Part shown: positions 13,982 through 23,252 of the stretch, piece by piece
How the letters are laid out: each line of letters starts with the position of its first letter
Numbering within the stretch: position 1 is the first letter of the stretch
DNA from: Chloroflexota bacterium
Lineage (GTDB): Bacteria > Chloroflexota > Anaerolineae > Anaerolineales > Anaerolineaceae
Assembly (NCBI GenBank): GCA_012798455.1
Contig: JAAZNC010000046.1
Span: 1 to 44,436 of the forward strand
Direction of reading: 5' to 3'
Length of the DNA stretch: 44,436 nucleotides
Notes under the pieces: generated by a model
Seen by the model: the letters and a program-made list of their open reading frames with translations, nothing else
Databases searched by the model: none
What the model was told of the DNA's origin: nothing
Made by a program: the position numbers and the translations under genes

Positions 13982-15172
13982 TTACTCTGATGATCGTTTG
14001 ATCATCTCAAAACACATGCGGCTTTCGTGATAGGAACTCTCCCAGGGTCCGAGCTTGGGACTGGTCTGATCGACCGTGCCATCGGGGGTCAAGCGCTTGA
14101 ACCAGCCGCCATGTACTTCATCGATAAATTTGTCTTGGATGAAATTCCAGCAGGTCTGGCTGGCGTGCAGGAACCTGGATTTACCCGAAAGCTGATAGGC
14201 ATTATAGAATCCGATCACCGCTTCTGCCTGTGGCCACCATTCTTTACCGGTCTGATTGATCTTGCTGGTTGTGCCTTCTTGGATGATGCCGCCGTGCGGG
14301 TCCATCCCAGAAGATAACACTCTTTCTGCCAGATTTAGAGAGACGGATTGGATTTTTTCTATTAATCCATGGTCTCCTAAAACGCTGGCAGCCTCATCGA
14401 GCAACCAACTGCCTTCGATTTCATGCCCACAGGAAACAAGATCGGATAACGAATGCCATTCTTTATCCAGAAAGAGCTTAAAATGTCCGCTTTGAGGGTC
14501 GATGATGTATTCTATGAAATCAAGCAGCAGATTTTGCAGGCTATTCCGAAGTGAAGGATCGTTCCACACTCTGAACAGGTTGGTATACGCTTCGATTAAA
14601 TGTAGCAAGGTGTTCATCGATTTATTGCAGTTCATATCTTTAGGGCTGAGGCGCATGTCAACCAACGGTGTAAAATTGCGGGCACTTCCTTCGATATATC
14701 CACCGAATTGTGGATCGTGGGCATGCTCTTCTACAAGGTGATAGAGATGGATAGCACGGTTCAGGCTTACCGGATCATGGGTTGCTCGGAAGAACTCACT
14801 GTAGCTGTAGATGCCAAATGCCTGGGCATAGTACTGCTTGTGATCGGATACCGGATTCCCACGTTTATCGATCGACCAGAATAATCCCTGGTAATCTTTA
14901 TCCCAAAATGCTGAATCAAGATAATCGCGTGCCATGATGGCGACCTGCAGGTATTCTTTTTCTGGATAGTGGAGATAGGCATGCGAGAAAGTCCACAGGA
15001 TTCTGGTGCAGGTTACTGCAGTGCGGGGAATATCGTTATTGATCCGTCCATCACTGTAAACAGCACCAAAAAAACCGCCATTTTCATAATCAGGGGCGGT
15101 TTTTATCCAGTAGGGCAGAATGTTATCGAGCAGTTCTCTTTCAAATTGTGATGGGAGGAATTGATTATTCAT
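13982..15172 (-). CDS. Cellobiose 2-epimerase-like (AGE family) enzyme
   Basis: A 396-residue alpha6/alpha6-barrel enzyme of the N-acylglucosamine/cellobiose 2-epimerase family. Motifs diagnostic of cellobiose 2-epimerase are GHEIEGSWL (catalytic H250), KEWWPQAEA (310-318), [12 protein letters not shown] (354-365) and [14 protein letters not shown] with catalytic H382. It would interconvert glucose and mannose at the reducing end of cellobiose or mannobiose. The start is ATG 15172: the longer reading frame begins with TTG inside the LacI operator and cannot be translated from the likely transcript. No clear Shine-Dalgarno precedes ATG 15172. First gene of an operon with GH130, downstream of operator site 3. 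Confidence 0.88.
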
Positions 15173-15206
15173 ACGCGAGGTTTTGAAATGCCCTGTTTTT
15201 GGAATT

Positions 15207-15236
15207 ATTGGGAACGCTCCCAATCAATCTATTTTA
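15207..15236 (-). promoter_or_regulatory. LacI-type operator site 3 with -10 element of the epimerase-GH130 promoter
   Basis: The 18-mer at 15207-15224 is identical to the operator at 49-66. Reading on the minus strand, TAAAAT (15236-15231) precedes it by six bases, much as TAAAAT precedes site 1 at lacI. A consensus -35 is not obvious; TTGAAC at 15262-15257 is 20 bases away, longer than ideal. The arrangement indicates repression of the epimerase-GH130 operon by the LacI protein. Confidence 0.78.
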
Positions 15237-15583
15237 TCATGAAACCCCTCTTTTTGGTTCAAGTGACATTTTTTTTGATCAAGGAATCAAGTTTGTTTCT
15301 TTGCCTTCGCGGATTTTTTTGCTGGTTTATCAAGATCATCCCGGTAATGGTGATGATCGAACTAATTTAATCTTAAACTGAAAGAGCGGTATACTCAATG
15401 TTTGATCGGCGATGTGCCTGAAATATATCAAGAGTGAGATTTATCATCAATCAATAATATTAGAATAATACTTTTTGTGATAGAAACACTGATAAAACTG
15501 TTCATCGCATCCGATTGATCACTGCACATGATTGAGGGAGATTTTCATTCAATACACCTTTAAATACGTTAAAGAAAAAACAT
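15225..15583. other. Divergent intergenic region between epimerase and MFS genes
   Basis: About 360 AT-rich bases. The left end holds the minus-strand promoter of the epimerase operon. A GAGGGAG at 15534-15540 looks like a ribosome site but has no fitting start codon; the MFS start at 15584 is over 40 bases further on. No convincing plus-strand promoter or RNA gene was seen. Confidence 0.5.
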
Positions 15584-16786
15584 ATGTTGGACAAGATAAA
15601 GAAGAGTGCCTTATACCCGAACATTGGATTGATCGTCCTTGCTTATATCGCGTTCATCGCTCTGGGGATGCCGGATGGCTTGTTAGGTGTAGCATGGCCA
15701 TCCATTCGAGCCGATTTTTCAATCCCATTGGATGCGGTTGGCGTATTGATTTTGTCATCAATGGCTGGATATTTAACTTCCAGCTTTCTTAGTGGTCTTC
15801 TCGTTTCTCGCTGGGGGATTGGAAAAGTTCTCATGATAAGCTGCGTTATGACGGGTGCGGCACTTCTCTCTTACACGTTTGCTGCAGATTGGTGGTTGAT
15901 GGTGTTGTTGGGTACCGTAAGTGGTCTGGGAGCTGGAGGAATTGATGCAGGTCTCAATAATTATGTGGCTGCGAATTTCAGTGATAGATTAATGCAGTGG
16001 TTGCATGCCAGTTATGGGATCGGCATTACCCTTGGTCCAATTATCATGACATTATCCCTTTCAATTCTAAATTCCTGGCGAATTGGATATCGTATAGTAG
16101 CTTTATTTCAGTTTCTATTAGCCGCTTGTTTTTTGTTAACCCTCTCTTTATGGAAATTAAAAAAGCAAACTGAGAAAAGTGAAGATTCAAAACCGCAAAC
16201 TGAGAATAAAGCGCCTTTTATCGAAACGTTAAGGCAGCTACAAGTGTGGTTAAGCATGTCCTTGTTTTTTACGTATGTTGGAGCTGAAGTGTCAGTTGGA
16301 ACATGGATTTATAGCCTGCTTACAGAATCACGTGGAATTGATGCAACTCTGGCAGGATATTTTGTCAGCAGTTATTGGGCGACCTTTACTGTTGGTCGAA
16401 TCATTGCGGGGATTTTCGTGAAAAAATTGGGGGTAAACACTTTGGTACAAGGAAGTGTGGTGGTAGCTTTGTTGGGCACATTTTTATTAATCTGGAATCC
16501 CTCCGAAGTGATGAATCTGTTAGCAGTGGCTCTCATAGGTTTTGCCATTGCTCCAATTTTCCCATCTTTAATGTCGGGTACCAACCGACGTGTGGGTTCT
16601 CGTTTTGCTACCAATACCATTGGTATGCAAATCGCTTTTACAGGGTTGGGAGCTGTGGTTATCCCCAGCTTTTTTGGGATGCTGGCACGTCATTTTTCAC
16701 TGGAGGTTATTCCTGTTTGTCTGGTGGTTGTGTTTTCAGTATTATTCTGCCTTTACCGTTTATCAATGCAAAAAGCATGTAAATAA
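15584..16786 (+). CDS. MFS transporter, FucP-like
   Basis: A 400-residue major facilitator protein with about 12 membrane segments in two halves, joined by a charged cytoplasmic loop (KKQTEKSEDSKPQTENK, near residue 200). The N-terminal stretch ALGMPDGLLGVAWPSIRADF and the second-half motif YFVSSYWATFTVGRIIAG resemble the FucP/sugar-permease-like MFS subgroup. It lies divergent from the epimerase operon, so uptake or export of a sugar is possible, but substrate is unknown. Translation signals before ATG 15584 are weak. No operator copy lies on its own side of the intergenic region. Confidence 0.85.
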   Translation: MLDKIKKSALYPNIGLIVLAYIAFIALGMPDGLLGVAWPSIRADFSIPLDAVGVLILSSMAGYLTSSFLSGLLVSRWGIGKVLMISCVMTGAALLSYTFAADWWLMVLLGTVSGLGAGGIDAGLNNYVAANFSDRLMQWLHASYGIGITLGPIIMTLSLSILNSWRIGYRIVALFQFLLAACFLLTLSLWKLKKQTEKSEDSKPQTENKAPFIETLRQLQVWLSMSLFFTYVGAEVSVGTWIYSLLTESRGIDATLAGYFVSSYWATFTVGRIIAGIFVKKLGVNTLVQGSVVVALLGTFLLIWNPSEVMNLLAVALIGFAIAPIFPSLMSGTNRRVGSRFATNTIGMQIAFTGLGAVVIPSFFGMLARHFSLEVIPVCLVVVFSVLFCLYRLSMQKACK

Positions 16787-17147
16787 AGTGGGAGTAATCT
16801 ATCATGAGAATGATACTAAAAGGCGAGAAAGAATAACTGCTTGCTGCTCTAGAATTGAATCATTTGATCTGTAGTAATTTCAATATTGATAAATCACTCA
16901 TAGGAACGTGTTGGTCATAAACAAGAACATCATCCAACCCGATGGATTTGTTTACATCTTGGTGATGAGATATATTGGTGCTCAGCCAATAAAAATGCAT
17001 TCGACAGTGATTATTTCTGCTCAATGAACAACATTCAACAGAGATCGCTTTGCTGGGTGCAAATTGAAAAATAATCAGGGTGGGTAAGTTTATGTTTTCT
17101 CATCAATATTGTGCAGGACAGATTATCGCTACTTCATCAAGTTCCAA
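16787..17147. other. Gene-free stretch, possibly decayed sequence
   Basis: About 360 bases between convergent MFS and EamA genes. It carries only short open frames, for instance one of 15 codons from 17023, and a 6-bp hairpin TATCAT-GAGA-ATGATA at 16800-16815 with no T-run. I saw no terminator, RNA gene or repeat. Decayed coding DNA is possible but unproven. Confidence 0.45.
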
Positions 17148-18044
17148 TCAATGATGGGGTGTCTTTTTAATATTTGTCATCGTTATCCCAACTGTGGCGA
17201 TCAACAAGCTGATCCATGCCTGGATGGAGAGCGTATCTCCCAGAAAGATGACCGAAAGCAGTGCAATCTGCACCAGCATAGAATTATTGAGTGCGCCGGA
17301 TTCTACCGCGCTGAGCACTTGCAGTGATTTGTTCCACAGGGTGAAAGCAAATGCTGTATTAACTGCTGCCAGGCTTAAAATAACGATCCAGTTTGTGATG
17401 GAGATGGTAGGAAATTTCTCACTTGCTAATCCGATAACCAGCAATAGGATTGCTCCGATGCTCATGCTGACGCCGGTTGTTACACTGGCAGACAGATTTC
17501 CATGCCGGTTGACCATTCTTCCCAACAGCGCAGCCAGTGCATTGGCAAGCACAGTGAACCCAGCAAAGAAATAACCGATTAACTCACCCTGCAGGTCCGG
17601 ATTAGGAGTGAAGTAGAGCAGTACCCCAATGATGAAAACGGAGATACCTATCCACTGGAGAAGACTGGGTTTTTCGTGCAACAAGAAGATCCCGAAAATG
17701 GCGATAAAAATGGAAGTGAAATTCAGTAGCAGGCTAAAAGTGGTGGTTGGCAGGTATTTGAGAGTGATGAATTGTCCACCCTGTGTGAAAGTGTAAAATA
17801 CGATCCCCAGCAAGGTCAGTTGCTGCCAGTTTTGTATGGATAGGTCCCGAATGACGGATCTACTTTTCAGCAATTTGGGTAGAAGGAACAAGCTGGCAAA
17901 TCCGTAGCGCAATCCAGCAAAGGTCAACGGGGGAATGTCGCTGATGGTGAATTTGATGAGGATCCAAGAGGAAGACCACAATATGGTTACCAGCAGAGCC
18001 TGCAATATGGCTTTAGTTCTTTGGGAAGAGATAGTATTGTTCAT
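17148..18044 (-). CDS. EamA/DMT-family metabolite exporter
   Basis: A 298-residue drug/metabolite transporter with two EamA repeats and about ten membrane segments. N-terminal signature LLVTILWSSSWILIKFTISDIPPLTFAGLRYG and C-terminal ESGALNNSMLVQIALLSVIFLGDTLSIQAW (both quoted only in part by key residues WSSSW, PPLTFAGLR, NSMLVQ) are typical. Family members export amino acids or other small metabolites. It is divergent from the threonine operon with only 82 bases between starts, so amino-acid export is a reasonable guess. No Shine-Dalgarno precedes ATG 18044, and a weak promoter (TTAAAA, 17 bases, TAATTT) would place the transcript start about at the ATG. Confidence 0.85.
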   Translation of the reverse strand: MNNTISSQRTKAILQALLVTILWSSSWILIKFTISDIPPLTFAGLRYGFASLFLLPKLLKSRSVIRDLSIQNWQQLTLLGIVFYTFTQGGQFITLKYLPTTTFSLLLNFTSIFIAIFGIFLLHEKPSLLQWIGISVFIIGVLLYFTPNPDLQGELIGYFFAGFTVLANALAALLGRMVNRHGNLSASVTTGVSMSIGAILLLVIGLASEKFPTISITNWIVILSLAAVNTAFAFTLWNKSLQVLSAVESGALNNSMLVQIALLSVIFLGDTLSIQAWISLLIATVGITMTNIKKTPHH

Positions 18045-18086
18045 ATCTAAAATTATCTCATTGAATAGGCGATTTTAAGAAAAAGC

Positions 18087-18122
18087 TTGACTTGTTTTAG
18101 CTGAGATGATATAGTATTGCCC
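18087..18122 (+). promoter_or_regulatory. Threonine operon promoter
   Basis: TTGACT (18087-18092), a 17-base spacer and TATAGT (18110-18115) form the best promoter in the window. The predicted transcript start, near 18122, lies only about five bases before the ATG of the leader peptide, so the leader may be translated from an almost leaderless message. Confidence 0.75.
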
Positions 18123-18126
18123 AATT

Positions 18127-18228
18127 ATGAACTGCTACCGGGCGTACGCTACTACTACCGCTACTACTACCACTCATCACGATCGTGATGGAGGGTTGCG
18201 GTGCGTTACCTGCAGCAGGAATGGATAG
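18127..18228 (+). CDS. Threonine operon leader peptide
   Basis: A 33-codon frame, ATG 18127 to TAG 18226-18228. Codons 9-16 read Thr-Thr-Thr-Ala-Thr-Thr-Thr-Thr (ACT/ACC), followed by His-His, with one more Thr at codon 28. This is the layout of attenuator leader peptides, where ribosomes stall at codons for the pathway's end product. It lies between a strong promoter and an intrinsic terminator that precedes aspartokinase, in an operon ending in threonine synthase. E. coli thrL mixes Thr and Ile codons; here Thr alternates with Ala, and no Ile occurs. An in-frame stop (18112-18114) bars any earlier start, and there is no Shine-Dalgarno site. Confidence 0.85.
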   Translation: MNCYRAYATTTATTTTHHDRDGGLRCVTCSRNG

Positions 18229-18268
18229 AATCAATCTATCCGTAAAAAGGAAAGAACAAACGCCTCGT
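18146..18268 (+). promoter_or_regulatory. Candidate alternative folds of the thr attenuator
   Basis: Segment 18198-18207 (GCGGTGCGTT) can pair with 18259-18268 (AACGCCTCGT), nine of ten positions counting G-U pairs. That would destroy the terminator: an antiterminator. The same segment can instead pair upstream with ACCGC (18157-18161) and ACGC (18146-18149), inside the Thr-codon run. A ribosome stalled on Thr codons would mask that upstream strand and favour antitermination. Two further hairpins are visible: CATCACGATCGTGATG (18175-18190) and GGATAGA-ATCAA-TCTATCC (18223-18241), the latter over the leader stop codon. Pairing was judged by hand, with no energy calculation. Confidence 0.6.
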
Positions 18269-18290
18269 ACCCCACGAGGCGTTTTTCTTT
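18258..18290 (+). terminator. Attenuator terminator of the threonine operon
   Basis: ACGCCTCGT (18260-18268) pairs perfectly with ACGAGGCGT (18274-18282) around a five-base loop; flanking A and T residues extend the stem to 11 pairs, followed by TTTTTCTTT. A strong intrinsic terminator placed 30 bases after the leader stop and 33 before the aspartokinase start. Confidence 0.92.
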
Positions 18291-18322
18291 ATCTACAAGC
18301 TTTCATTATAAAGAGGTGCTTT

Positions 18323-19771
18323 ATGGACGGGAACAAGATCAGGAAGAAACAAGCCAGATTGCTAGTGATGAAGTTTGGAGGAACTTCGGTCGGGAGCAGT
18401 GATGCCATCGCTCAGACGGCGCACATCATTCAGGATGAATGTGCCAATTGGGAGGATGTGGTGGTGGTGGTTTCGGCAATGAGCGGGGTAACCGATGCCT
18501 TGATTGCCTGCGCAAAAAGCGCGGTCACGGGAGACCAAGAAAAATATGCAGATTTGGTGTGCGCTGTGCAGAAAAAACACCAAAGGGTTGTTAATGAACT
18601 TATCACCAATCATGAAGTCAAGGTCAAATTGCAGGATGAACTGGTTGTCTTGTTCGACACACTACGTTTGTTGTGCCAGGGTATCCATATTATGGGAGAA
18701 TTGACCCCGCGTGGAATGGATGCAATGATCTCGCTGGGAGAACGGATGAATGCCCGCATGGTGAGCGCCTTGCTGCATCAGAACGGGTTTGCCAGCCAGG
18801 CAGTGGAAGCTACTGCCCTGATCATTACGGATGATTCCTTTCAGCATGCGCACCCAATAATGGAACTTTCCCGCAGTAAAACCAGGGCAGCTTTACAGCC
18901 GTTGCTTGCAGATCATATTATCCCGGTGGTGACGGGTTTTGTTGCTGCTAACCGCGAAGGTATCATTACAACCCTGGGCAGAGGTGGAAGCGATTATACT
19001 GCTGCACTGTTGGGTGACTTTTTGAATGCTCAAGAAGTATGGACATGGACAGACGTAGATGGTGTGATGACCGCCGACCCACGTATCGTGCCGGATGCAC
19101 GTGTTATCCCTGAACTCACCTACAATGAAGTTTCGGAGATGGCATATTTTGGAGCAAAAGTACTGCATCCGCAAACCATCCGCCCGGTGATAGAACGTGA
19201 TATTCCCTTATGGGTAAAGAATACCTTCAACCCTGCGTTCCCTGGCACACGTATTGATGGCTGTTCTAAAACGGAGCGTGGGCGCATCACTGCGGTCACA
19301 GCCATCCACGGATTGAGTCTGATCACGGTGGAAGGGCGTGGTATGTTGGGTGTGCCTGGTATCGCAGCGCGCACCTTTGCCGCGGTTGCCAGGCACGAAG
19401 CCAGTGTGCTGATGATCTCCCAATCTTCTTCGGAACAGTCTATTTGCTTTGTTATTCCCTCTGATATGGAGGTGGCGGTACTCCAAGCTATTGAAGATGA
19501 AATGGCTTTAGAACTAACCCGCCGCGATATTGATCGAGTGTGGGCGCAACCGGATGTGGTCATTGTGACTGCCATCGGATCGGGCATGCGCCAGACCCCC
19601 GGTGTTTCCGCCCATCTTTTCGGGGCGCTTGGCAAGAAAAATATCAATGTGATCGCCATTGCGCAGGGCTCATCCGAATACAGCATTTCGGTAGTGGTAT
19701 CTGCGGCGGATGCCGACCAGGCAGTGCGCCAGATCCATGAGGAGGTGATCTGCAATGAACTATCAGAATAA
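18323..19771 (+). CDS. Aspartokinase (monofunctional)
   Basis: A 482-residue aspartate kinase, first step of the aspartate pathway (aspartate to aspartyl phosphate). The kinase signature KFGGTSVGSSDA begins at residue 17; TDVDGVMTADPRIVPDA and MAYFGAKVLHPQT mark the catalytic domain. The last 150 residues form two ACT-like regulatory segments (LGVPGIAARTF and TPGVSAHLFGALGKKNIN), so feedback inhibition by threonine or lysine is likely. Layout resembles the kinase half of ThrA, but no homoserine dehydrogenase domain follows. ATG 18323 has AGAGGTG (18312-18318) upstream; the open frame reaches further up but crosses the attenuator. It overlaps the next gene by 17 bases. Confidence 0.95.
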   Translation: MDGNKIRKKQARLLVMKFGGTSVGSSDAIAQTAHIIQDECANWEDVVVVVSAMSGVTDALIACAKSAVTGDQEKYADLVCAVQKKHQRVVNELITNHEVKVKLQDELVVLFDTLRLLCQGIHIMGELTPRGMDAMISLGERMNARMVSALLHQNGFASQAVEATALIITDDSFQHAHPIMELSRSKTRAALQPLLADHIIPVVTGFVAANREGIITTLGRGGSDYTAALLGDFLNAQEVWTWTDVDGVMTADPRIVPDARVIPELTYNEVSEMAYFGAKVLHPQTIRPVIERDIPLWVKNTFNPAFPGTRIDGCSKTERGRITAVTAIHGLSLITVEGRGMLGVPGIAARTFAAVARHEASVLMISQSSSEQSICFVIPSDMEVAVLQAIEDEMALELTRRDIDRVWAQPDVVIVTAIGSGMRQTPGVSAHLFGALGKKNINVIAIAQGSSEYSISVVVSAADADQAVRQIHEEVICNELSE

Positions 19772-20816
19772 AAAGATCAACGTGGCAGTACTGGGTGCCA
19801 CCGGAGCGGTGGGACAACGTTTTGTGCAATTATTATGTGATCATCCCTGGTTCCAGATCAGCACGCTGGCTGCCTCTGAACGGAATGTGGGCAAACGCTA
19901 TAAAGATGCCTGTGGATGGCATCTCAACAATGCCATGCCCGATGTCGTGCGCGAAATGACCATCCAACCTGTGAAACCTTCAGTAGATGCCCAGATTGTT
20001 TTTTCTGCTCTCCCTGCGCAGGTGGCGCGAGAGATTGAGCCGCTTTTTGCGCAAGCTGGTTATGTGGTTTGCTCCAATTCATCTGCTTTCCGCCTGGATA
20101 TGGATGTGCCGGTCATCATCCCGGAAGTCAACGCGGATCATCTAGCACTATTGAAACGGCAGAAAGAACTACGCGGTTGGAAGGGATTGCTTGTAACCAG
20201 TCCCAACTGTACTACCACCGGCATCGCCATTCCTCTAAAGCCGATCGATATGGCTTTTGGGGTGAAGAAGGTGGTAGCGGTCAGCATGCAGGCAGTTTCG
20301 GGTGCAGGCTATCCGGGGCTCTCTTACCTGGATATCCAGGATAACGTCATTCCCTTCATCAAAGGTGAAGAGGAAAAAATGGAGCGCGAATCCAAAGCCT
20401 TATTGGGTCGTATGGCAGGTAAACAGCGCCTGGATGCAGATTTCATTTTCAGCGCCCAGGCGAACCGCGTAGCGGTGTCGGAAGGACATACCATTTGTCT
20501 TTCACTGGAACTGGAAGAAAAAACTGAAATTGCAGCTTTGCAAGATCTGCTGCGGGATTTTCGTGCTCCTATATACCGTCCAAACTTGCCCAGTATGCCC
20601 CTGTTCCCCATTGCTGTGCGAGAGGAAGTTGATCGACCGCAGCCACGTAAGGACAGCAACGCTGGAGAAGGGATGCAGGTTTCAGTGGGGCGTATCCGTC
20701 CTTGCCCGGTGTTGGATGTGCGTATGGTCTCGGTGGTACATAATACATTACGCGGCGCAGCCAGCGGTGCTATTCTGAATGCGGAATTGTTGGTGGCAGA
20801 AGGATATCTCTCATGA
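19755..20816 (+). CDS. asd: Aspartate-semialdehyde dehydrogenase
   Basis: A 353-residue NADPH-dependent enzyme making aspartate semialdehyde from aspartyl phosphate. The Rossmann motif is GATGAVGQRF (14-23), the catalytic cysteine is C152 in SPNCTTTG, and the catalytic histidine is H245 in SEGHT. The length and the segment VSMQAVSGAGYPG place it in the archaeal/fungal-like long branch rather than the short E. coli branch. It overlaps the aspartokinase end by 17 bases and the next start by four (ATGA), so translation is coupled throughout. Confidence 0.94.
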   Translation: MNYQNKKINVAVLGATGAVGQRFVQLLCDHPWFQISTLAASERNVGKRYKDACGWHLNNAMPDVVREMTIQPVKPSVDAQIVFSALPAQVAREIEPLFAQAGYVVCSNSSAFRLDMDVPVIIPEVNADHLALLKRQKELRGWKGLLVTSPNCTTTGIAIPLKPIDMAFGVKKVVAVSMQAVSGAGYPGLSYLDIQDNVIPFIKGEEEKMERESKALLGRMAGKQRLDADFIFSAQANRVAVSEGHTICLSLELEEKTEIAALQDLLRDFRAPIYRPNLPSMPLFPIAVREEVDRPQPRKDSNAGEGMQVSVGRIRPCPVLDVRMVSVVHNTLRGAASGAILNAELLVAEGYLS

Positions 20817-21946
20817 AAAACTATGGATTTGCTTCCCTGCAGGATTTTCTGGGTGATCGCATCCTCTTCCGCAATCTCAATGCACTGGACCCTGCTTTAC
20901 CGCGTCTGGATGACCTACGCAAGGATGTAAATCTGTCCCCTAACATCATTCCACGCAAGACCTCCCTCGATTATGCGCGTGTCATTATCGAATTGGTGAA
21001 GCAAGCTCGCCGACAGGATGGTAACCCAGCTGACATTCGCCATATCATTTATGTGGGTGATACTCGCATGAATGATGGCATGGCGTTCCGAAATATCTGT
21101 GCGAGCGCGCACTGGCGTGGCGCTGCCATGATCATTGCAGAGGATGATGAACTATCAAAATTGGATCAAGAACAGGATGAAAATTCCATTATCTTTTTCA
21201 ATAATCATTGGGTCAATCTGCGCGTTTTTCACTTGCTTTTACAAATGAAGGAAATAGAGTTGAATGAGGAAACAGTGGTATTGATCGATGTGGATAAAAC
21301 TGCCCTGGGCGCGCGTGGACGCAACGATGCAGTGATCGATGAGGCGCGTGTCAAAGCTGCCCAGACGGTGCTGCAAGAGATTCTTGATTATACATTTGAT
21401 GTTGATGAGTTTGTGCGTGTATATTCGACTTTGAATCAGCCCGCCTATCATCCCTTCACTGGGGATAATCAGGATTATCTGGTATATATCTGTCTGATCT
21501 TGCTGAGTGGACTTTTTAAATTGGAAGATATTGTTACCGATGCTCATCTTGGATTGCTTTCCAATTTTGACAGTTTCATCGATCAGGTAGAGCAGCGTTG
21601 TATAGATCTGCCAGTTGGTGTGTGGGAAGTGCATCACGAGATCTACCATCTGGTGAAATGTGGAGATGCCACTCCATTTAAACAGTTCCGGAAAATGGAA
21701 TATCACACAACCTCGGCACGAATGGGTCAACTCCCTTGTCAAAGCTCAATTGAGGAACTACTGCAACAAGAGATCCTCATCACGCGTGAAGTACAGGAAT
21801 TTGCAGTGCGTTGCCGCAAGGCGGGCGCCACTCTATTTGGGCTATCAGATAAGCCGGATGAAGCATCAGTGTCCTTTTCTCAAGATGAAAATTTGAAATC
21901 TTTACATCAGATATCAACCCACGTGGTAGGAGCGAAAAATGAGTGA
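20813..21946 (+). CDS. Unrecognised HAD-like protein with permuted motifs, in the threonine operon
   Basis: A 377-residue protein I do not recognise as a named family. Its motifs match the haloacid dehalogenase superfamily but in rotated order: a motif-III-like lysine K49 ([11 protein letters not shown]), motif [13 protein letters not shown] (78-88), motif I LIDVDKT with D159 and D161, then, after a mainly helical stretch of about 180 residues that could be a C1-type cap, motif [10 protein letters not shown] with S345. HAD enzymes are mostly phosphatases or phosphotransferases. It is translationally coupled to asd (ATGA) and overlaps thrC by eight bases, so a role in threonine synthesis is likely. 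The operon lacks homoserine kinase; a phosphotransfer role at homoserine, as in Pseudomonas ThrH (also HAD), is a speculative option. A regulatory or unrelated phosphatase role is possible. Confidence 0.6.
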
Positions 21947-23252
21947 ACAAAGTTGGTTGGAATGTATTCGTGGCTGCGGTGAAAAGCATGCCATCACTGA
22001 AGTGGTTTACCAGTGCGAACAGTGCGGTGGTTTGTTGGATGTGAAGCATGATGTGGATGCTCTCAAACAGCGTTCTGTGGGAGAGTGGAAAGAATTGTTC
22101 GAGCAGAGAGCGGCTGTTCGCTCCGGTTCTTACGCCAGCGGAGTATGGGCAAAGAAAGAATGGGTCTGCCCACAGCTATCATTGGAAGATATCGTCACCT
22201 TTTATGAAGGAAATACTCCGCTCCTAAAGGTTCCAACCCTGGGAAAGCATATCGGTTTGTCTGATCTGTGGGTAAAGCTATGTGGGAATAGCCATACCGG
22301 TTCCTTCAAAGACCTGGGTATGACAGTGCTGGTTTCTGTAGTAAATCACATGATCCGGCAGGGCAATCCTATCCGGGCGGTGGCATGCGCCTCTACTGGT
22401 GATACCTCTGCGGCACTGGCTGCTTACGCTACGGCTGCCGGGATTCCGGCGGTCATCTTATTGCCACATGCCAAAGTATCACCCGAACAACTTATCCAAC
22501 CGCTCTCCAATGGTGCCAAAGTACTGTCGCTGGATACAGATTTTGACGGCTGCATGCGCGTTGTACAAGAGCTGACGCAGGATCCGTCCATCTATCTGGC
22601 AAATTCCATGAACTCCCTGCGCATAGAAGGGCAGAAGACAGTTGGTATCGAGGTTGTGCAGCAGTTTGGCTGGCAGGTGCCCGATTGGATCATCCTGCCA
22701 GCGGGCAATCTGGGAAATGTCAGCGCACTGGGAAAAGGGTTGCTGTTGATGTACGAATTGGGATTGATCGATCATCTCCCGCGTATTGCCTGTGCTCAGG
22801 CGCAGAATGCCAATCCTTTTTATCTGGCGTATAAAAATGGATTCAAGCAATATCAGCCTGTTGCGGCGCAAAAGAGCATGGCGAGCGCCATCCAGATTGG
22901 GGCACCGGTAAGTTATGAGCGGGCGGTTAAGGTCATGCAATGTTTTGATGGAATAGTTGAACAAGCTAGTGAAGAGGAACTGGCGAACATGTGTGCTCTT
23001 GCTGATCGCAGCGGGCTATATTGCTGCCCGCAGACCGGAGTGGCACTGGAAACTGCCCGCAAATTGGCAGTGCAGGGCGTAATCAAACCAAACGAACGCG
23101 TGGTGGTGATCTCGACTGCCAATGGGCTGAAATTTTCCCAATTCAAAGCCTCTTACCATGATGGAAGGATGACCGGTATGGATGCTCTATATGCCAATCA
23201 ACCGTTGGAGTTGCCAGCCGATCTGGGTGCGGTTTTAGCAGCGATTGGGTGA
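21939..23252 (+). CDS. thrC: Threonine synthase
   Basis: A 437-residue PLP enzyme converting O-phosphohomoserine to threonine. The PLP lysine is K124 in [11 protein letters not shown], with the phosphate-binding region [15 protein letters not shown] following. The N-terminus carries cysteines C9, C13, C26 and C29, a zinc-ribbon-like head seen in many longer threonine synthases. It overlaps the HAD-like gene by eight bases and is the last gene of the attenuated operon. No terminator was seen within the next 140 bases. Confidence 0.94.

Follow-up and report, generated by a model that had tools for sequence, protein, structure and literature searches.

Leader-peptide attenuators were known, according to a survey published in 2010, from the Proteobacteria and the Actinobacteria only, to which that survey added the Firmicutes (PMC2965389). 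Among them is the trpL attenuator of Sinorhizobium meliloti, whose transcript begins directly at the leader ATG (PMC7298713). In mycobacteria, leaderless short ORFs with poly-Cys runs are described, as far as the later reports that relay this work go, as controlling downstream genes through ribosome speed (Canestrari 2020, via PMC9031893 and PMC13236596). Since leaderless leaders are already known from these two cases, a leaderless attenuator is not new in itself, and the view taken in an earlier note on the DNA analyzed here, that a leaderless start would be unusual for attenuation, needs correction in the light of these precedents. In the Chloroflexi, leaderless genes have been predicted to make up 4-6% of genes in 4 of 12 genomes (PMC3160421); the mechanism is therefore available in this group, but not dominant. 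Our search of the literature found no report of a leader-peptide attenuator in the Chloroflexota, priority being uncertain beside the broader comparison of 2010 (Lopatovskaya et al., via PMC4833913).

A threonine-rich leader before an aspartokinase operon

The window analyzed here, a 44,436-nt stretch of a Chloroflexota genome that probably belongs to the order Anaerolineales, to judge by its kinship with named loci (L081), contains on its forward strand, to which the leader and the operon described below belong, a promoter (18087-18115) composed of a TTGACT -35 box (18087-18092), a 17-bp spacer and a TATAGT -10 box (18110-18115). The -10 box is followed by the stretch ATTGCCC and then by AATT (18116-18126), and transcription is predicted from this promoter to start at A18123, leaving a 4-nt 5' UTR that is too short to hold a Shine-Dalgarno sequence. 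The leader ORF (18127-18228) begins with ATG at 18127, encodes the 33-codon peptide MNCYRAYATTTATTTTHHDRDGGLRCVTCSRNG and ends with a stop codon at 18226-18228. Seven of the eight codons at 18151-18174 (ACT ACT ACC GCT ACT ACT ACC ACT) specify Thr. A TAG within the -10 box closes the leader frame upstream, and hence ATG 18127 is the sole ATG, GTG or TTG start available to the Thr run. The near-consensus promoter, the 33-codon frame, the seven Thr codons in eight and the 11-bp terminator discussed below all lie where the earlier note had placed them. If a leaderless gene is defined as one whose 5' UTR measures 0-5 nt and carries no Shine-Dalgarno sequence, both the predicted promoter and its conservation are consistent with a leaderless leader.

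The first gene of the operon is preceded by the Shine-Dalgarno sequence AAGAGGTG (18311-18318), with AGAGGTGC conserved in the genus, and the same transcript combines two start modes, predicted leaderless for the leader and Shine-Dalgarno for aspartokinase. This gene (18323-19771) codes for an aspartate kinase with AA_kinase and ACT domains, as identified with Pfam and NCBIfam, and is followed by the aspartate-semialdehyde dehydrogenase gene asd (19755-20816; NCBIfam TIGR00978), a 377-aa ORF without Pfam or NCBIfam match (20813-21946) and the threonine synthase gene thrC (21939-23252; NCBIfam TIGR00260, above cut-off). The gene set indicates that the operon makes threonine; homoserine dehydrogenase is absent from it. 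An N-terminal extension of aspartokinase through the terminator, by way of the frame that is open from 18185, was considered and rejected, because the sibling genome G118 lacks it (open frame of 485 aa) and a conserved Shine-Dalgarno sequence precedes ATG 18323.

Conservation of the leader and of its promoter layout

Among 56 relatives searched at the DNA level, the element was identified in no genome but the four others of the genus. Each of the five genomes retains promoter, leader frame, Thr run, antiterminator and terminator (5/5); the Thr run shows synonymous changes and one in-frame 3-nt indel and amounts to 7, 7, 8, 7 and 7 Thr per 12 codons. The -10 box is invariant in the five genomes, and from TGATATAGTA to the ATG a single base varies, whereas the promoter spacer has diverged over most of its length.

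Beyond the genus, similarity at the DNA level fades and the design of the leader stays. Among 153 aspartokinase upstream regions sampled across family and class, 20 present at least five Thr in 12 codons, against 3 among shuffled sequences and 4 on the reverse strand; the accompanying scan of contigs with universal aspartokinase motifs is no census. A Thr leader with a matched promoter and a terminator is found in L018 and L019, which represent a second genus of the family. For a second family, also of this order, eight regions were sampled: leader, promoter and terminator occur together in L183, L187, L217, L219, L226, L249 and L259, and L274 presents leader and promoter, with a predicted UTR of 7 nt and no terminator recognized by the scan. 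Three regions of a third family (L180, L185 and L239) also combine Thr leader, promoter and terminator, and at least three other Chloroflexota contigs among the matches listed (L081, L082 and L085) carry such leaders. L274 apart, every leader locus scanned has a terminator that separates leader and gene. Thr-rich leaders with terminators, which the earlier note had proposed to look for before aspartokinase in related genomes, are thus present both in the genus and in other families, and their conservation supports its reading of the locus as a threonine attenuator with near-leaderless initiation from a predicted 5' end.

The leaders with a matched promoter share a common layout, in which TTGAC, a spacer of 17 or 18 nt, the -10 box and 7 further nt lead to an A. 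The ATG coincides with this A in L180 (TAAACT-CTCGCCC-ATG) and L185, lies 3 nt past it in relatives with AAT, AAC or ATT, and 4 nt past it in this genus and L219 (AATT) and in L259 (AATC). The predicted 5' UTR ranges accordingly from 0 to 4 nt across leaders, with the 7 nt of L274 apart. A fixed distance from the -10 box to the A, combined with a variable one from the A to the ATG, is what would be expected if the A were the transcription start. The Thr/Met leaders of L088 and L235 lack the fixed promoter-to-A layout. The 5' end of the leader being known as a prediction, one could also postulate a promoter further upstream, giving a normal 5' UTR and a leader driven by a Shine-Dalgarno sequence, the leaderless layout being coincidental. 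Such an arrangement is unlikely, given that in the genus hardly any base changes between the -10 box and the ATG, in contrast to the variable spacer, that the distance from the -10 box to the A is constant in other families, and that the 30 nt before the leader ATG hold no Shine-Dalgarno sequence.

The codon composition of the run had led to the suggestion that threonine alone exerts control. This holds for the present genus, in which the leaders combine Thr with Ala only, and fails for most relatives outside it, which mix Met with Thr. Mixed leaders, with sequences such as MTMTTTT and MMTTT, are seen in L081, L085, L180, L183, L185, L235, L239, L259 and L286, and this mix of codons may reflect joint sensing of two products of the aspartate pathway. 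L081 and L085 also present a SAM riboswitch downstream of aspartokinase.

Leaders of related appearance were met elsewhere. Pattern searches for leaderless leaders in the genome under study yielded mostly chance hits and one further good case, a second near-leaderless leader (L049:1480-1660; G000:C59:5781-5960) with the arrangement TTGACA-N17-TATAGT-TGCGCCC-AAT-ATG. Its peptide, MQKHNHAKRTNNINKILIGGVVLVAEWW, is followed by a terminator, the leader is conserved throughout the five genomes of the genus, and it precedes what appears by inspection to be an ABC-transporter-like operon (substrate-binding protein, then permease). In the Bacteroidota, at least ten loci among the matches listed (L105, L111, L117, L118, L119, L130, L136, L137, L138 and L149) present short ORFs rich in Thr, or in Thr and Ile, upstream of aspartokinase. 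Those of the Flavobacterium type begin some 10 nt downstream of a TAnnTTTG box, so that they too are perhaps near-leaderless; a CCCC/GGGG hairpin covers their stop codon in place of an ordinary terminator.

Terminator, antiterminator and the predicted switch

The intrinsic terminator (18258-18289) consists of an 11-bp stem (18258-18268/18274-18284), an ACCCC loop and a U tract (TTCTT). The pairing of 18198-18207 with its 5' arm at nine of ten positions, pointed out in the earlier note, is real and forms part of a longer helix, in which the antiterminator strand GGGTTGCGGTGCGTT (strand 2, 18193-18207) makes 13 bp with 18259-18272. This helix takes in the CCC of the terminator loop, which would explain why the ACCC loop persists in both genera of the family. 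In the minimum-energy fold, a pre-emptor (1:2) structure spanning 18132-18218 is predicted to hide the antiterminator strand when the Thr codons are free of ribosomes. The fold also includes, inside the antiterminator loop, a small GGATAG/CTATCC hairpin over the leader stop codon (18221-18243), possibly a pause or spacer element. Hairpins over or just after the leader stop are seen by inspection in relatives as well (GTAGA/TCTAC, AACC/GGTT, AACT/AGTT).

The predicted transcript folds better than 200 of 200 dinucleotide shuffles (z = -6.3). When the transcript is folded as it stands just before the terminator 3' arm is made, a ribosome on the Thr codons raises the expected number of antiterminator (2:3) pairs from 1.2 to 12.9 and lowers that of 1:2 pairs from 19 to 0-2; masking the Thr codons, as previously suggested, hence moves strand 2 from the one structure to the other. 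The switch reaches p = 0.03 at this locus, and a combined Fisher value of 2e-5 over seven lineage representatives, when judged by dinucleotide shuffling of the intervening segment. The 1:2 pairing, which is predicted in most leader loci, does not surpass that of shuffled sequences at this locus (p = 0.27) and gives p = 0.005-0.05 in L183, L187, L226, L082 and L085, and folding indicates a weak or absent switch in L019, L217, L249 and L259. In the equilibrium fold of the full-length RNA of this locus, the terminator always forms, even with the Thr codons blocked, and read-through must therefore depend on the antiterminator forming first, that is, on co-transcriptional timing. Such reliance is usual for attenuators.

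In most loci, the antiterminator strand begins 14-23 nt past the last Thr codon and does not extend to the stop, a spacing at which it is predicted to be left free by a ribosome stalled on the Thr codons. The 9-bp antiterminator (2:3) helix of the second-family type also shows covariation, with four of its nine pairs changed on both sides and six cells, values that are reached in 3 of 500 shuffles for pairs and in 0 of 500 for cells; all the slid controls give zero. For this analysis the segments were excised manually from related sequences, a MAFFT alignment of the second-family leaders having misplaced one terminator arm. Pairing, folding and covariation in relatives therefore point, by computation, to an antiterminator that is incompatible with the terminator and becomes accessible upon stalling.

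These results bear on the remaining explanations. A genuine Thr-rich ORF might exert its control through translation, by reinitiation or by access to the aspartokinase start, the terminator just trimming the transcript, much as the mycobacterial leaderless poly-Cys ORFs are described, in the account given in PMC9031893, as acting on downstream translation. This is improbable, since leader and gene are separated, in almost every lineage, by a strong intrinsic terminator with its U tract and the conserved pairing engages the terminator arm, not the aspartokinase Shine-Dalgarno sequence at 18311-18318. Direct sensing of a ligand or of tRNA by the RNA, through a riboswitch or a T-box and with an incidental Thr run, could invoke locus L011 (genome G053), from a sibling genus of the same family, where a T-box scoring 102 bits and no Thr leader precedes aspartokinase. 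At the present locus, however, Rfam gives no match to T-box (RF00230) or to riboswitches, and the structures vary among lineages whereas the Thr codons and the 2:3 pairing persist, which makes direct sensing most improbable. The Rfam Thr_leader family (RF00506) has no match up to E = 5 within positions 15000-22000 of the window, and the relatives with leaders that were searched give none that reaches the gathering score. The weak hits to His_leader and Phe_leader at this locus, which fall below that score and sit on the terminator, were discarded. Finally, short ORFs are common, yet the chance occurrence of one before an ordinary terminator is scarcely credible for a run of at least seven Thr in eight codons (P = 1.5e-8 per random eight-codon window, or about 0.0014 expected over the whole window and both strands, with five or more Thr in eight codons found in just one further place, antisense to the aspartokinase gene) that is conserved in relatives and recurs upstream of aspartokinase in several families.

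Proposed mechanism and comparison with known systems

Taken from the sequence, the most probable reading, to which we assign a probability of roughly 0.85, is ribosome-mediated transcription attenuation by threonyl-tRNA, with a leader that would be read by leaderless (70S-type) initiation. RNA polymerase would start about 4 nt 5' of the leader ATG, and the leader would be translated directly from the 5' end of the transcript. With ample threonyl-tRNA, the ribosome would pass the Thr run and depart, strand 2 (18193-18207) would fold back onto the 5' part of the leader, and the terminator at 18258-18284 would halt transcription before aspartokinase. When threonyl-tRNA is scarce, the ribosome would stall at 18151-18174 and block the 5' part, leaving strand 2 to take the terminator 5' arm and loop and allowing read-through into aspartokinase, asd, the 377-aa ORF and thrC. 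Given a predicted 70S-type start for the leader, at the very 5' end, and a Shine-Dalgarno start for aspartokinase, it is conceivable, though improbable, that the leaderless start is itself part of the sensor, which would then respond not just to threonyl-tRNA but also to the state of the ribosome (initiation factor 3, free 70S, stress), and that the terminated RNA of about 165 nt, or the peptide, acts in trans in analogy to rnTrpL/peTrpL of S. meliloti. The proposed arrangement raises the question of how leaderless initiation keeps the coupling with RNA polymerase tight enough for attenuation.

Among described systems, enterobacterial thrL shares with this locus the Thr-rich leader peptide, the alternative antiterminator and terminator, and a threonine operon with aspartokinase as its first gene. 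It differs in combining Thr and Ile codons with a Shine-Dalgarno sequence, whereas the present leader carries Thr (Thr and Met in relatives) and is predicted to be leaderless. The trpL system of S. meliloti is a transcription attenuator with a leaderless leader ORF, as is predicted for the present locus, but it senses Trp, belongs to the Alphaproteobacteria and has a UTR of 0 nt, as opposed to Thr and a predicted 4 nt here. The mycobacterial poly-Cys ORFs, insofar as the relaying reports describe them, resemble the present leader in being small ORFs with a run of the sensed codon and, if its predicted 5' end holds, in being leaderless, and differ in their action on downstream translation in place of an intrinsic terminator. 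The T-box of L011, in turn, precedes the same gene, which it probably also controls through tRNA charging, by direct binding of tRNA to RNA and with no leader peptide; judged from sequence, the two loci represent an exchange of sensors at the same gene. Beside these systems, the Chloroflexota stand as an added phylum with a conserved and covarying set of Thr and Thr/Met leaders, for which leaderless initiation, as far as the predicted 5' ends indicate, would be a lasting rule and not a one-off.
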